Below, in pieces: positions 26,600-35,389 of a DNA stretch of 64,000 nt. The notes beneath the pieces are model-generated. The model was not told the origin of the DNA. It did not search any database and worked only from the letters and a program-made list of their open reading frames with translations. The number at the start of each line of letters is the position of its first letter. Position 1 is the first letter of the stretch. Source of the stretch: a virus; the IMG/VR virus record IMGVR_UViG_3300005338_000001, positions 1-64,000 of that record. One strand, given 5' to 3'. A program made the translations under genes and the position numbers.

Positions 26600-26732
26600 T
26601 TGCGGTGGCTGTGCAGAGTTGCGACAGGTGGACCTGCAAGTGGCCATCGGGATAAAATCCGAGACACGGGCAGGCGTTAAGGCTTACGGTGAAACGCCGT
26701 TATTGAGCCGAGCCGCAAGCCGCCTCCCTAAT

Positions 26733-26804
26733 CGCGGGTTAATTCATCGGCAGAAATCTGGCCTCATAATCCGGAAGTAGTGGGTTCAATTCCCACACCC
26801 GCAA
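26733..26804 (+). tRNA. tRNA with CAU anticodon, initiator-like acceptor end
   Basis: Cloverleaf: acceptor CGCGGGT/ACCCGCA with a C1-A72 mismatch, D arm ATTC...GAAA, anticodon stem CTGGC/TCCGG with loop CTCATAA (anticodon CAT at 26765-26767), T arm GTGGG-TTCAATT-CCCAC, discriminator A73; no encoded CCA. C1-A72 is the hallmark of bacterial initiator tRNA, but the anticodon stem has only two of the three consecutive G-C pairs and position 11-24 is elongator-like (T-A). Elongator Met or lysidine-modified Ile are alternatives. Confidence 0.75.
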
Positions 26805-26854
26805 CCCCTCTGCGAACTTCCTTGCATCCGCCGCCGTTGCGACGAAGATACGGA

Positions 26855-29961: not shown

Positions 29962-30783
29962 CTACCTCGCGAGCGTCAGCGGCATCAGGGTTGATCCGGA
30001 TTTGCGCCAAAGCCAGAGTGGCACATCTGCCGGCACCGCAAAGTTGAGCATCTGGCCTCGGATGAAATGAGACCTGACAACTGCCACAACCTTGCCACTG
30101 GCATCAATCACCGGGCCGCCGCTTGAACCGGGAGAGATGGCAGCGGTGATTTGCAGCATCTCATGCTCATCCTCATCCGTCCGTGTTCCGGAAACGATCC
30201 CTTCCGTGATTGAGAATTCAAAGCCCAGGGGATTGCCGATCACTGCAATGCGGGTGCCCGGAGCAACGCGGGTTGCATCGCTCAACTCTAAAAACGAGTG
30301 GTTTCTTCCGCCAGTGGAAAGCACCGCGATGTCGTAGTCCTTGTGCAGAGCGATTGCACCAGCCACGTTGTACACATCGCCGTTGATCGTCTTCACTGTG
30401 GCTGTGTGCGCGCCCTCCACCACGTGAAAGTTGGTCACCAGCAATCCGTCCTCGGAAATGAAGAAACCGGATCCGGTAGCGGTCTTTCTTCCAAATACGT
30501 CAAAGACAGAAATCCGCACAACCGCTCTGCTCGCGTCTTCAAAAATGCGCGCAGTGTCGAACGGTCGCGACGGCTTCTCAGCGCGGACAGGCGCAGGCGT
30601 CTCGGCAGCCGAAGCGGTTTCCTTGACTGGCGTTGCGTTGTTCCCCGAGTCCTGCCGCAGCGCTCCGATGACCAGCACTAGGGCAATCAGTCCGCCAGCA
30701 ACCCAGCAAGCAATCTGCACCCGCTGATTCAAGCGTTCTGCGGGAGGAGTCTTTCGCAAAATTACCTTCGGTACTCTTCTCAT
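29962..30783 (-). CDS. Membrane-anchored trypsin-like serine protease
   Basis: 273 residues from ATG 30783. A transmembrane anchor lies at about 24-42 (IACWVAGGLIALVLVIGAL), then a Pro/Ala/Glu linker, then an S1C (HtrA/DegP-type) domain: TNFHVV gives H120, KDYDIAVL gives D151, and SPGSSGGPV gives the nucleophile S221 (codon AGC at 30121-30123). There is no PDZ domain, so it is a minimal protease. The frame is open to a TTG at 30897, which would add a doubtful second hydrophobic segment. Secreted or periplasm-facing cleavage is expected; such genes are unusual in phage cores, and a host-derived gene is possible. Confidence 0.75.
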   Translation of the reverse strand: MRRVPKVILRKTPPAERLNQRVQIACWVAGGLIALVLVIGALRQDSGNNATPVKETASAAETPAPVRAEKPSRPFDTARIFEDASRAVVRISVFDVFGRKTATGSGFFISEDGLLVTNFHVVEGAHTATVKTINGDVYNVAGAIALHKDYDIAVLSTGGRNHSFLELSDATRVAPGTRIAVIGNPLGFEFSITEGIVSGTRTDEDEHEMLQITAAISPGSSGGPVIDASGKVVAVVRSHFIRGQMLNFAVPADVPLWLWRKSGSTLMPLTLAR

Positions 30784-31121
30784 GGCATCTGTGGTGCTCT
30801 GAAAACGAGCGGCGCGGTCACCGCATCCCGCCGAGGCACCTGAGAGAGCCAGCACGGTAATGACAGCGACCGCGCCTATCCGGCGCGATGGCTGCAAAGG
30901 ACCGTGCGTGAAAATTCTCAGGTTTTCGGCGGGCCGTTCGCAGAACGCGAAATTGAATGTTGTTGTCCGCTGAAATCAGCCAACGCAAGCGGTTGCGTCA
31001 ACACAAGAATCACTGGAAGCGCTTGGAGAGATTCGTTCGGCTTTTAGCGTCACGTTTTTGGGTTGCGAAAAGAGTTGCAAAAAAGAGTTGCGTAGGTCCG
31101 CAACACCTGTATCATGCCCTC
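30784..31121. promoter_or_regulatory. Divergent intergenic region with GTTGC repeats
   Basis: Gap between the protease and the winged-helix gene. From 31062 it contains three GTTGC half-sites 12-13 bases apart, including AAAAGAGTTGC twice (31068-31078, 31081-31091), and an inverted pair GTTGCG/CGCAAC (31087-31092, 31099-31104) just before ATG 31122. These fit binding sites for a regulator, possibly the winged-helix product itself. The rest shows no gene. Confidence 0.45.
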
Positions 31122-31553
31122 ATGAACGAAGACGATTTTGACTCTCAGATTCAACGCGACATCACTGCGATGGAAACGGAATTACGCGACCTTCAGCGCG
31201 CACTCGATGCAGCACGAACGTATCGTGCGCTCCGTCGCAAAAAGGGCGGCGTGAAATCGCCGACCATGACCCCCGATCCGATGCTGCCGCTGACTGCAAA
31301 TCACACAGCGAAGAACGGCAGCAACAAGAAACAGACCGCCGCGAAGGCGATCCGCGAAGCCATTGCATCGTGTGCGACCGACTACACGGTTTACGATCTG
31401 GGGCGCATCCTCGCGGCGCGCGGCACGCCAGTTGGCCGGCCTGCACTCTCACAGTTCCTGTCCCGGCTTTTGAAGGACAAGGAAATCACCCTCAAGACTC
31501 CGGGCAAAGGTCCGAAACCAAACGTCTTCACCAAGGAGGTAACAACCACGTAG
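31122..31553 (+). CDS. Coiled-coil / winged-helix DNA-binding protein
   Basis: 143 residues from ATG 31122. An acidic helix (DSQIQRDITAMETELRDLQR) likely dimerises; a basic linker follows; the C-terminal 65 residues have the helix-helix-strand pattern of a winged helix (TVYDLGRILAARG, then ALSQFLSRLLKDKEITLK). The repeated GTTGC sites directly upstream suggest autoregulation. It is followed by an intrinsic terminator and a tRNA. No family name can be given. Confidence 0.55.
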   Translation: MNEDDFDSQIQRDITAMETELRDLQRALDAARTYRALRRKKGGVKSPTMTPDPMLPLTANHTAKNGSNKKQTAAKAIREAIASCATDYTVYDLGRILAARGTPVGRPALSQFLSRLLKDKEITLKTPGKGPKPNVFTKEVTTT

Positions 31554-31560
31554 AAAAAGC

Positions 31561-31594
31561 GAACCCGGCGAGCGCTGAAACGCCTGCCGGGTTC
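31561..31594 (+). terminator. Intrinsic terminator after winged-helix gene
   Basis: Perfect 9-base stem GAACCCGGC (31561-31569) with GCCGGGTTC (31586-31594), preceded by GAAAAAGC and followed by a weak TAATT run. It ends six bases before the tRNA, so the tRNA is transcribed separately or by read-through. Confidence 0.6.
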
Positions 31595-31599
31595 TAATT

Positions 31600-31672
31600 G
31601 TCGTAGTAGCTCAATGGATAGAGCACCTGTCTGCTAAACGGGAGGTTGCTGGTTCGAGACCAGCCTACGACG
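31600..31672 (+). tRNA. tRNA with Ser-type GCU anticodon on an Arg-like body
   Basis: Cloverleaf: acceptor GTCGTAG/CTACGAC, D arm GCTC-AATGGATA-GAGC, anticodon stem CCTGT/ACGGG with loop CTGCTAA (anticodon GCT at 31633-31635), five-base variable loop, T arm GCTGG-TTCGAGA-CCAGC, discriminator G, no encoded CCA. The anticodon would read serine AGC/AGU, yet bacterial tRNA-Ser has a long variable arm, absent here. The D loop GGATAGAGC and C35-U36 are features of tRNA-Arg (UCU). Amino-acid identity is therefore uncertain. Confidence 0.8.
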
Positions 31673-31761
31673 CAACTAACAAACCAGCGGTTGCCCGCCA
31701 GCCTGCACATTGACACGCGCAAGGTAACGACGGGACCGCTTAAAAGCAAGCACAAAATCCC

Positions 31762-32613
31762 ATGAACAAACTCGACCGTTCCAAGCGCGCGCAAATCCTG
31801 CGCTGTCTCACTGAAGGCACTTCCATTCGTGCCGCTGCACGCCTCACCGACTGCGCGATCAACAGCGTGGTGAAACTCCTGATTCAAGCGGGCCGCGCCT
31901 GCACGGAGTATCAGGATCGCACACTCCGAAAACTCAACTGCCAGAGGCTGCAACTCGATGAGGTTTGGAGCTTCGTTTATTGCAAGGAAAAGAACGCCAC
32001 TGCGGAAGAAAAAGCCGCTGGCGCTGGCGACGCGTGGACGTGGACGGCACTCGACGCGGACTCAAAGGCAATCGTCGGCTGGTTTGTCGGCCCGCGCAAC
32101 GCGCGCTCGGCATTCCATTTCATCGGCGACCTTGTTGATCGGATGGCTTCGCGCAAAGTGCAGATCACAACCGATGGATTGAGTCTCTACGTCAACCCCG
32201 TGCATTCGATGTTCTGTGGCGAGGCCGATTACGCGCAGTTGCAGAAAATCTACGGCACAGAGCCGATGCCGTCTGGCCGATACAGTCCCGCGCAATGCAT
32301 GGGGAGTCGTCGCGCTGTGCTCAACGGCAACCCCGATCCCGCACATGTTTCAACGTCCTACGTGGAACGCCAGCATTTGACGCTGCGCATGAACAACCGC
32401 CGCTTTACGCGCCTCACGAACGCCTTTTCAAAGAAGCTGCAAAACCTTGAGCACTCCGTTGCGCTCTACACGATGAGCTACAACTTCTGCAAGATTCACA
32501 GTTCGCACCGCGTCACTCCCGCAATGCAGCTTGGAATTGCGGATCACGTGTGGGAGACAGAAGAGATCGTTGACCTGATTGACGCTCTCGAAATGGCTGG
32601 AAATTCAAAATGA
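31762..32613 (+). CDS. IS1-family transposase-like protein
   Basis: 283 residues. An N-terminal HTH (SIRAAARLTDCAINSVVKLL, residues 21-40) is followed by a DDE catalytic core: LQLDEVWSFV (D66), ITTDGLSLY (D138) and YVERQHLTLR (E202), with the basic RRFTRLTNAFSKKL stretch after the last acid as in IS1 InsB. Single-frame IS1-like transposases of about this size exist. I could not find flanking inverted repeats or a target duplication, so the element may be decayed or domesticated. It follows the Ser/Arg tRNA. Confidence 0.75.
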   Translation: MNKLDRSKRAQILRCLTEGTSIRAAARLTDCAINSVVKLLIQAGRACTEYQDRTLRKLNCQRLQLDEVWSFVYCKEKNATAEEKAAGAGDAWTWTALDADSKAIVGWFVGPRNARSAFHFIGDLVDRMASRKVQITTDGLSLYVNPVHSMFCGEADYAQLQKIYGTEPMPSGRYSPAQCMGSRRAVLNGNPDPAHVSTSYVERQHLTLRMNNRRFTRLTNAFSKKLQNLEHSVALYTMSYNFCKIHSSHRVTPAMQLGIADHVWETEEIVDLIDALEMAGNSK

Positions 32614-32621
32614 TACACGAC

Positions 32622-33125
32622 CTAGAAATCAATGATGTTGTGAGAGGACAGGATGCTGACAGGAGGAAGATCGCAATCAACCAGAGCCATCCCCACATCT
32701 TCGGCATGTGCTTGCAGCAATGGCAGGCGCGTCGTAACCAGCATCTGGCAGTTCATGTAGGCCGCCTCCACCAGCACACGGACATCTTGGCGAGATCCAC
32801 CAGGCAGGACATTTCTTGCGAGGATTTTGCTCACGTGCATTTTGGTGACTGCTTTTTGAGTGTCCGTAAATGCCGGGCAATCGCAATCACTGTCCTCAAT
32901 TTCTTGCCGCACCAATCTGGCTCGTTCGCGTTGTTCCCTGTCTGCTGATTCCGTTTCTGTGGCTGCAATCTCCACAAGAACGGATGGACAGATGATGAGA
33001 TCGAGCCGGAGTTTTTTCCGGAGAACTTGGATTGCTTTCGTGTGATGCGAAATTCCAAACCGCTCCGCAAACAACACTTTCGTGTCAAGAGCAGCCCTAC
33101 GCGGCTGTTCTTGGGCAAGAGCCAT
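32622..33125 (-). CDS. PIN-domain protein (possible toxin)
   Basis: 167 residues. Acidic positions of a PIN ribonuclease are visible: ALDTKVL (D14), CPSVLVEIAAT (E52) and RQDVRVLVEAA (D114), with the final LVTTRLPLL strand where classical PIN domains have LVTxD; here the D is replaced by R. The overlapping upstream gene encodes a small acidic protein and a palindrome precedes both, the layout of a VapBC-like toxin-antitoxin pair. Loss of one acid may reduce activity. It is convergent with the IS1-like transposase. Confidence 0.55.
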   Translation of the reverse strand: MALAQEQPRRAALDTKVLFAERFGISHHTKAIQVLRKKLRLDLIICPSVLVEIAATETESADREQRERARLVRQEIEDSDCDCPAFTDTQKAVTKMHVSKILARNVLPGGSRQDVRVLVEAAYMNCQMLVTTRLPLLQAHAEDVGMALVDCDLPPVSILSSHNIIDF

Positions 33126-33499: not shown

Positions 33500-34483
33500 T
33501 TACAGTCCACCCGTCGTGTCGTGCATCGTGAGCCGCTTTCCCTGTGCCTGTTTCAGTCCGGCAACCGTGCGTTCGCCGTCCGTTTCCTTCCGGCTGTTCC
33601 AGCGGAAATCGAACTCCGCGACGTAGCGCCCAAGGTGCTTGCGCGAGATGTGATGGAAGTTTCCGATCACGCCACGGCGCAAAAGCGAGAACGAGCTTTC
33701 CGCGTAGTTCGTGGAAACAACTTCGCCGTCCGGCTCGGTGCGCTGGTATTCGCGTTTCCCGCCAGCCTTTCCGTGCGTCACGAATTTGTGGCGGAAGTCC
33801 GCGCCGAGTTTCTTGTATCCGGGATGCTCGTCCGTGTGAATGGTGGAACCCGCCGCCACGTGCTCACACACGGCTTCGCGCAGGTTCTTGCCCGTCACGA
33901 TCTCGGAAAGCACAACGGAGCGGCGCTTGCCCGTCTGGCGCTCTACTAACGCCACGACGGCAGACTTTGATCCACGGCGGAATCCCTTGCCCTTCGTTTT
34001 CGGACCGTAGTAACACTCGTCAACCTCTACCATACCGTTCAGTTTTCCATCGGGAGTGACATCGGCCAGAGAGTGGCGGATGCGATGGCAGAGAAACCAC
34101 GCGGACTTGTAGGAGCCGAGTCCAAGGTGACGCTGCATCTGCTTTGCGCTCATTCCCTTTTTCGCACCGCTCATGAGATACCAAGCGATCAACCACTTAT
34201 CGAGGGTGATGTGCGAGTCTTCAAAAATCGTTCCCACCGTGACGCGGAAAGACTTTTTGCACTCTGCGCACTGGCGCAAGCCGACACGGATTTTCTTTTC
34301 TTTGTTCGCCGTGAGCTTCCAAATTTTCTCCGCGTCCGCGTTTCCGCAGTGCGGGCAAACGGGACCGTTTTTCCAGAGGATCGTTTCCATGTATTCGATG
34401 GCTTTCTCCTCTGTGGAGAAGCGCGCCATGATTTCGGGAAGCGTCAAATCTTCCGGCGTGAGAAACGTGTTGCTCTTGTTCAT
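33500..34483 (-). CDS. IS1595-type (ISXO2-like) transposase
   Basis: 327 residues, full length for the family. An N-terminal zinc ribbon (CPHC at 43-46, CAEC at 72-75) precedes an HTH-like region and a DDE core: MVEVDECYYG (D155), IHTDEHPGY (D218) and NYAESSFSLLRRG (E262), followed by HHISRKHLGRYVAEFDFRWN, the conserved end of this family. All catalytic residues are present, so it could be active. A leaderless promoter directly precedes the ATG. It abuts the truncated end of TnpB, which it probably interrupted. Confidence 0.88.
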   Translation of the reverse strand: MNKSNTFLTPEDLTLPEIMARFSTEEKAIEYMETILWKNGPVCPHCGNADAEKIWKLTANKEKKIRVGLRQCAECKKSFRVTVGTIFEDSHITLDKWLIAWYLMSGAKKGMSAKQMQRHLGLGSYKSAWFLCHRIRHSLADVTPDGKLNGMVEVDECYYGPKTKGKGFRRGSKSAVVALVERQTGKRRSVVLSEIVTGKNLREAVCEHVAAGSTIHTDEHPGYKKLGADFRHKFVTHGKAGGKREYQRTEPDGEVVSTNYAESSFSLLRRGVIGNFHHISRKHLGRYVAEFDFRWNSRKETDGERTVAGLKQAQGKRLTMHDTTGGL

Positions 34484-34489
34484 GCGCGA

Positions 34490-34518
34490 AGAATCTCACC
34501 GCGTAGAACAATTGTCAA
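34490..34518 (-). promoter_or_regulatory. Leaderless-type promoter of IS1595 transposase
   Basis: TTGACA (34518-34513), 17-base spacer, GATTCT (34495-34490), then six bases to ATG 34483. The -35 overlaps the last codons of the truncated TnpB. Confidence 0.5.
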
Positions 34519-35324
34519 GGGGATAATCCCGAAATGTTGTCGTAACGGTTGACGTAACCGCGAGCGACTTTTTGCAAATAGTCCTTTCGCTGATTCGCGA
34601 CCCGCTCATGGATTCTCGCCGCACGACTCGCTGCTTTCTTGCGACGGTTACTGCCTTTTGTTCGGCGGGCAATCATACGCTGCGCGATGCGCAGTGCCCT
34701 CAGTGTGTGTTTGAGGTGCCGTGGATTCTCAACCTTGTTGCCTTCACTGTCCGCGACCAGATGCTTGAGTCCGAAGTCCAATCCTACGCTCAGTCCTGTT
34801 TTTGGAAGTTCTTCGGTCTCAGTTGCGCACACGGCCTGCAAATACCAACCACTCGGCTTGTGAAGGATTCGGCAGAATTTGAGCACGCCATTGATGTCCC
34901 GATGCCGATTGAACCGGATGCGTCCCCCGAGCATCTTTCCGGCCTTGAAATAGCTTTCGGAAATCCCATTGCTTACGGCATCTCGGAACTGGATGGAATG
35001 CCATCGGTTCGCACCCTTGAAGCGCGGGAAGCCTTTCTTGTTCGCGCCCTCCTTGCAGCGCCGAAAGAAGTTCGCAAAAGAAACATGCAAACGCTTGAGT
35101 GTGGTATCCACAACCACGGCGGGAATCTCAGGATGCTCTTTGCTGCCGTGCTTTTTGTCCTGCGCGAAAAGGTTCATGTGCTTTCCGGTCGCCTTGTAGT
35201 GGGAAACCAGTTCCACCAGCGCGGAATTGTAGAGTTCCCGCGACAATCGCAGCGTCTTCCACAGCGCAGTTTCCTGCGACGGATTCGGCCTGAGACGAAA
35301 TTCGTAGGTGAGCATCTTCGGCAT
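34515..35324 (-). pseudogene. tnpB: Truncated TnpB (IS200/IS605)
   Basis: 269 residues against about 370-400 for complete TnpB. The RNA-guided nuclease's N-terminal helical and beta-barrel part is intact, and GLDFGLKHL (D183) is the first RuvC acid. The protein stops at RYDNISGLSP, just where the VEDL glutamate, the CxxC zinc finger and the third acid should follow, so the nuclease centre is incomplete. The break falls at the IS1595 unit, whose promoter overlaps the last codons. The lost 3' part is not seen on the far side. The guide RNA normally encoded at the 3' end would also be lost. Confidence 0.8.
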
Positions 35325-35359
35325 GATGGCGCGCGCAAAAAGAAAGTGCAAGAAATATC

Positions 35360-35389
35360 TTGACCGTTTTTGGACCACCGTGGTAGATG
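35360..35389 (+). promoter_or_regulatory. Leaderless-type promoter of early operon
   Basis: TTGACC (35360-35365), 18-base spacer, TAGATG (35384-35389), seven bases to ATG 35397. The same geometry occurs before several other first genes in this window. Confidence 0.5.

Follow-up and report, generated by a model that had tools for sequence, protein, structure and literature searches.

A viral tRNA with an arginine-like body and a serine-reading GCU anticodon belongs to a rare class scattered on mobile elements

An RNA that interferes with arginine decoding is known from CreTA, a type VIII toxin-antitoxin system made of two RNAs in which CreT sequesters tRNA-UCU, while its antitoxin CreA is crRNA-like and needs Cascade (PMC12737573). 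Phages can also carry tRNAs of their own, some of which evade tRNA-targeting defence nucleases (PMC10264068, PMC11555353). In tRNA-dependent lysogeny, the phage tRNA has the isotype of the host tRNA that is disrupted and serves normal decoding (PMC10865867). Here we describe a tRNA gene with an arginine-like body and a GCU anticodon (bases 34-36) at 31600..31672 (+) of a 64,000-nucleotide stretch, hereafter the window, taken from a virus record of 78,526 bases (IMGVR_UViG_3300005338_000001). With the defence-evading tRNAs it shares the phage location and an altered anticodon loop, but in those the anticodon matches the amino acid, whereas in the window tRNA it does not (PMC10264068, PMC11555353). 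Like the tRNAs of tRNA-dependent lysogeny it is a lone phage tRNA, but those match the isotype of a disrupted host tRNA and take part in normal decoding (PMC10865867). Likeness to CreTA is confined to relatives of the window tRNA, in which a putative toxic RNA that would disturb arginine decoding stands beside an RNA partner; unlike in CreTA, a tRNA would itself be the toxin, the partner is antisense to the anticodon arm of that tRNA, and no partner was found in the window (PMC12737573). Among open-licence papers, we found no description of a tRNA with a self-directed antisense RNA.

Compared with canonical tRNAs, the window tRNA resembles tRNA-Arg(UCU) of phages and bacteria in its body, its A20-U20a D loop, its short variable loop, and an anticodon loop of the form CU-CUAA with C35 and U36. 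It differs from them by A60 and by G34 in place of U34, so that it reads the AGY codons of serine and not AGA/AGG. With bacterial tRNA-Ser(GCU) it shares the anticodon and G73 but neither the long variable arm nor the body. ARAGORN places a tRNA with anticodon GCT at 31600-31673 (+), and the Rfam family RF00005 matches exactly 31600-31672 with 66 bits (gathering score 29, E 3.9e-12) and no non-standard pair marked. All stems are paired (acceptor 7/7, D 4/4, anticodon 5/5 including one G-U, T 5/5), unlike in a tRNA pseudogene with broken stems, and the RNA fold has a z of -3.3. The D loop is AAUGGAUA, the anticodon loop CUGCUAA, the variable loop AGGUU, and the discriminator G73, while CCA is not encoded. 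By reading the sequence, we found the tertiary partners U8-A14, A15-U48, G18-U55, and G19-C56 all present. These results confirm the complete cloverleaf, the GCU anticodon, the variable loop of five bases, and the A20 of the original prediction, which had not remarked on the only anomaly of the molecule, an A at position 60 of the T loop where 112/112 UCU control tRNAs have a pyrimidine. A search of IMG/VR revealed no relative that shares this tRNA body, and we found no sigma-70-like promoter close to the gene. The only other tRNA of the record has a CAU anticodon (26732-26807, +) and looks like a trait of the lineage because terminase-related phage contigs carry a CAU (Met-type) tRNA as the only one recognised.

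Bacterial SerRS requires the long variable arm of tRNA-Ser, while E. coli ArgRS recognises A20, C35, and U36 or G36. The window tRNA has A20 (as do 112/112 UCU control tRNAs), C35, and U36, and its variable loop has five bases; canonical Ser(GCU) tRNAs in the phage loci of our data set are 84-90 nt long with long arms. We made isotype profiles from the 400-odd tRNAs in the fetched loci with the anticodon masked, which in a two-fold validation placed 112/117 Arg(UCU/CCU) and 19/19 Ser tRNAs correctly. The window tRNA scored 52.2 bits as Arg(UCU/CCU), 46.5 as Asn, 45.9 as Thr, 43.6 as Lys, and 11.6 as Ser, which supports the earlier claim of an Arg-like and not Ser-like body. The margin of 5.7 bits over Asn is somewhat inflated because the Arg training set was gathered by a pattern that the window tRNA also fits, a bias in favour of Arg. 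Among phage genomes, the blastn match of highest identity is a tRNA-Asn of a Bacillus phage (85%). The simplest route of descent would be from tRNA-Arg(UCU) by a change of U34 to G, and an origin from Asn(GUU), in which U35 became C, would be a weaker alternative.

A change of the genetic code from AGY to arginine can be ruled out by conserved serines at AGC sites of the phage. In the large terminase subunit, the AGC-encoded residues 81, 115, 294, and 524 are serine in 32/32, 29/32, 30/30, and 27/27 relatives, respectively. A trypsin-like protease ORF (29962..30897, -) has its nucleophile serine, the second one of a GSSGGP motif, encoded by AGC at 30121-30123; the original prediction had rightly named this codon, while its residue number 221 depends on the chosen start and becomes 259 in the longest ORF. 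The commonest serine codon of the phage is AGC (17 per 1000), and 38% of all serine codons in the phage are AGY, which answers the phage side of a proposed check of AGY usage. Together with the protease and the terminase, this strengthens the earlier view that a complete reassignment is unlikely. If arginine were frequently inserted at AGY, the proteins of the phage itself would therefore suffer. Since the body scores as Arg and AGY still means serine, the window tRNA is most simply read as an arginine-accepting tRNA that would misread serine codons.

The window tRNA is part of a recurrent class of AGY-reading, Arg-like tRNAs that is rare and scattered on mobile elements. The sequence pattern of its type with a GCU anticodon was found on 8 viral contigs and in 31/84,980 species genomes of many phyla, and the same pattern with ACU, which also reads AGU, on 15 viral contigs; with UCU it is found on at least 120 viral contigs. 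This rarity fits the label of an orphan tRNA that had been offered as one option in the original prediction. Full pairing of the stems (17/17) is seen in 90/99 UCU controls, 7/39 GCU tRNAs, and 1/10 ACU tRNAs, with losses mostly in the acceptor stem. Because of these broken acceptors, about half of the class look like relics, with the window tRNA among the intact members. Some members have diverged with their AGY-reading anticodons retained. The loci of a bacterial MAG (L039, GCU) and a viral contig (L217, ACU) are 67% identical at the nucleotide level and differ at base 34 of the tRNA, so that AGY reading has been retained, and the same holds for three related viral contigs (L206, L215, and L216; all ACU) with 72-88% identity.

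In the window, the tRNA lies directly downstream of an ORF of 198 aa on the same strand (30957..31553, +) with no significant family match, for which we found no relatives and whose C-terminus by eye looks winged-helix-like. Between the two, a strong hairpin of 13 pairs (31561..31594, +; RNA z -4.7) ends 5 nt before the tRNA and probably serves the upstream gene as a terminator or in processing. On the other side, an ORF for an IS1-like DDE transposase of 283 aa (31762..32613, +) starts 89 nt after the tRNA, followed by an IS1595-family transposase (33500..34483, -). Homologues of the IS1-like ORF adjoin AGY-anticodon tRNAs in L039, L217, L042, and L218 (a fragment), and homologues of the IS1595 transposase lie near GCU tRNAs in L007, L020, L024, L030, and L032, while neither matches any of 123 UCU loci; both thus match GCU/ACU loci only. 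Among viral contigs, IS1 or IS1595 transposases are found near 4/24 AGY tRNAs compared to 0/123 UCU tRNAs (p 0.0006). The gene order in L039 and L217 is a protein of ~200 aa, the tRNA, and the IS1-like gene, and the upstream proteins of these two loci are homologous (E about 1e-11). This order is also that of the window, where the 198 aa ORF gave no significant sequence match to these two proteins. IS1-like transposases elsewhere mostly have no adjacent tRNA, so the association holds only from the tRNA to the transposase, and we do not propose tRNA carriage as a general property of the IS family. A search for terminal inverted repeats enclosing tRNA and transposase revealed no convincing ones, and the neighbours searched included no recognisable tRNA-using enzyme. 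As a side observation, a TnpB-like (OrfB_IS605) protein with a C-terminus that looks truncated (34515-35378, -) adjoins the IS1595 transposase, and the 31.7-35.4 kb region is an IS-rich stretch inside the phage record.

Several relatives of the window tRNA have a putative antisense RNA next to them. We first noticed this in the flanking sequences of L020, L214, and L008, where a putative promoter ~40-80 nt beyond the tRNA is followed by a segment complementary to the tRNA's own anticodon arm; the test over all loci came later. Exact complements of at least 10 nt to the own anticodon arm within 350 nt were found at 9/48 AGY loci and 0/91 UCU controls, where one value of 23 comes from a self-match of the tRNA at the end of a contig and not from an antisense segment. 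In a shuffle test with the loop fixed, 9/25 AGY tRNAs with good acceptors reached p <=0.02 compared to 1/25 with broken ones. One of the nine, L032, is doubtful because it is GC-rich, which leaves eight clear cases with an antisense match of 10-15 nt within about 130 nt of the tRNA (tRNA plus putative antisense at L036:540-750, L020:5250-5460, L008:1090-1302, L214:13950-14172, L019:1440-1658, L024:1330-1510, L040:7243-7400, and L219:9727-9880). The pairing covaries across these eight: 96.6% of cells are paired, 7/11 pairs have changed on both sides, and the covariation is 0.70 compared to 0.21 when shuffled and at most 0.14 when slid. In L036, L020, and L008, a hairpin and then a second segment complementary to the 3' side of the arm follow. 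Promoter-like sequences precede both the tRNA (TTGTCA-16-TATAAT) and the putative antisense RNA (TTGACA-17-TATTAT) of L020 as well as the putative antisense RNA of L008 (TTGAAA-17-TATAGT), and no Rfam family covers the putative antisense RNAs. By reading its flanks, we found that the L036 cassette lies between dnaJ-like and yqeY-like genes, so this arrangement is not only a phage trait; the cassette was not found in 59 other genomes of its family, where matches barely exceeded the tRNA.

No such partner was detected for the window tRNA. The best local antisense match is 6 nt (p 0.87), the two best 10-mers in the whole record lie inside ORFs or far away (a 10-nt candidate at 32937 was rejected since it lies inside an ORF), and the duplex energies of RNA pairs carried too much noise to reveal one. 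We therefore do not claim the window tRNA for the antisense-paired group. Beyond the reach of the original prediction was that the window tRNA belongs to a recurrent class that is often found beside IS1/IS1595 transposases and has some members with a covarying putative antisense RNA.

Our favoured reading, to which we give a probability of about 0.42, is that of a missense tRNA maintained as a passenger with a toxic or addictive effect. It builds on the observed anatomy and body type, the meaning of AGY as serine, the recurrence of the class, its neighbours, and the complementarity in relatives. A real tRNA, derived from tRNA-Arg(UCU) with U34 changed to G, would most likely be charged with arginine because it has A20, C35, U36, and a short variable loop, and hardly with serine because it has no long variable arm. 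If expressed, it would pair with AGC and AGU and place arginine at serine positions in a fraction of events. Given the heavy use of AGC by the phage, it would normally have to be scarce, masked, or induced, and in several relatives the masking may be done by an antisense RNA dedicated to the anticodon arm. The miscoding tRNA could then travel on mobile elements as an RNA passenger that is toxic or addictive, and we infer that the window copy may work in the same way. Against this reading, the window tRNA has no detectable antisense partner or sigma-70-like promoter, carries A60, and is without a same-body relative in IMG/VR, and terminase-related phages have only Met-type tRNAs. Furthermore, half of the class is degenerate and ACU is as frequent as GCU, as mutation alone might give. 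The Arg training set was pattern-biased in favour of Arg, Asn is 6 bits behind, and the charging and the toxicity are putative.

The main rival is a phage tRNA-Arg(UCU) that fell out of use and changed at base 34 by drift, leaving an unexpressed or harmless gene without function, and we consider this a serious contender that ranks next. The broken acceptor stems in half of the AGY class, the comparable frequency of ACU and GCU variants, and, for the window tRNA, its A60, its missing promoter, and its restriction to this genome agree with drift. However, every stem of the window tRNA is intact, L039/L217 and L206/L215/L216 have kept AGY anticodons over 12-34% divergence, and the antisense and transposase associations of intact members would be unexpected. 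Other explanations appear considerably less probable. The tRNA might be a decoy that absorbs an anticodon nuclease or toxin, in line with phage tRNAs that withstand tRNA-cutting defences (PMC10264068, PMC11555353), or it might donate Arg-tRNA to a non-ribosomal reaction, for which an Arg body with an odd anticodon that excludes it from arginine decoding would suit a dedicated donor. Both are improbable given that none of the neighbours searched was recognisable as an enzyme that uses tRNA and that with a good serine anticodon the tRNA would still enter decoding. An origin from tRNA-Asn(GUU) by U35 to C, giving a mischarged or uncharged molecule and not an arginine tRNA, would explain the best match to the Bacillus phage tRNA-Asn and the second rank of the Asn profile, but this tRNA-Asn has U20 where the window tRNA shares A20-U20a with Arg tRNAs, and with the Arg profile 6 bits better we regard such an origin as very unlikely. 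Least credible is a serine tRNA that lost its variable arm and is still charged by a divergent host SerRS for normal decoding: it would account for the GCU anticodon and G73, yet it is at odds with 11.6 bits for Ser compared to 52.2 for Arg and with the length and long arms of the canonical Ser(GCU) tRNAs in the phage loci.

In our furthest-reaching reading, mobile elements may carry a new RNA-only type of toxin-antitoxin system, a somewhat doubtful proposal in which the toxin would be a tRNA inserting arginine at serine AGY codons and a small RNA that pairs with its anticodon arm would be the antitoxin in those cases that have one, with the window tRNA as a member that is controlled otherwise or has lost its partner. 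By sequence, the type VIII arrangement of an RNA antitoxin gene beside an RNA toxin is seen in the eight relatives and not in the window. Working like a toxin RNA and being a member of the tRNAs with an Arg-type body are separate questions. The eight tRNA/antisense pairs, which lie outside the window, are the strongest novelty, and the covarying antisense beside some AGY tRNAs would represent both a new route of tRNA silencing and a new toxin-antitoxin design. If charged with arginine, these tRNAs would be natural agents of directed mistranslation. Annotation software names genes of this class tRNA-Ser, and the disagreement between body and anticodon therefore goes unseen.

Some loci of our data set hold further unusual tRNA-like elements. 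In L206, L215, and L216, a conserved stand-alone non-coding RNA surrounds the tRNA-like element, consisting of a hairpin and a tRNA-like core with a CUACUAA loop and an acceptor of only 5 bp, flanked by terminator-like hairpins; the core is its best conserved portion. L042 carries a second AGY-reading short-arm tRNA (1438-1513, +) with ACU anticodon and Thr-like body just 3' of its GCU tRNA. The 4.4 kb contig L007 has, by sequence, two miscoding tRNAs, as a Leu-like long-arm tRNA (2145-2232, -) with a UUA anticodon that would read the UAA stop codon lies close to the GCU tRNA, and 13 nt of its variable arm (CCTTGGCGGGATA) are repeated just beyond the GCU tRNA. Finally, GCU-loop tRNA-like elements with broken acceptors in L005/L018 and L035 as well as L004, L026, L028, and L029 have 3' ends that recur across genomes (CAGCAAATTAC; CTTGAA-type), and these elements are possibly remnants of attachment sites or another kind of mobile tRNA-like element.
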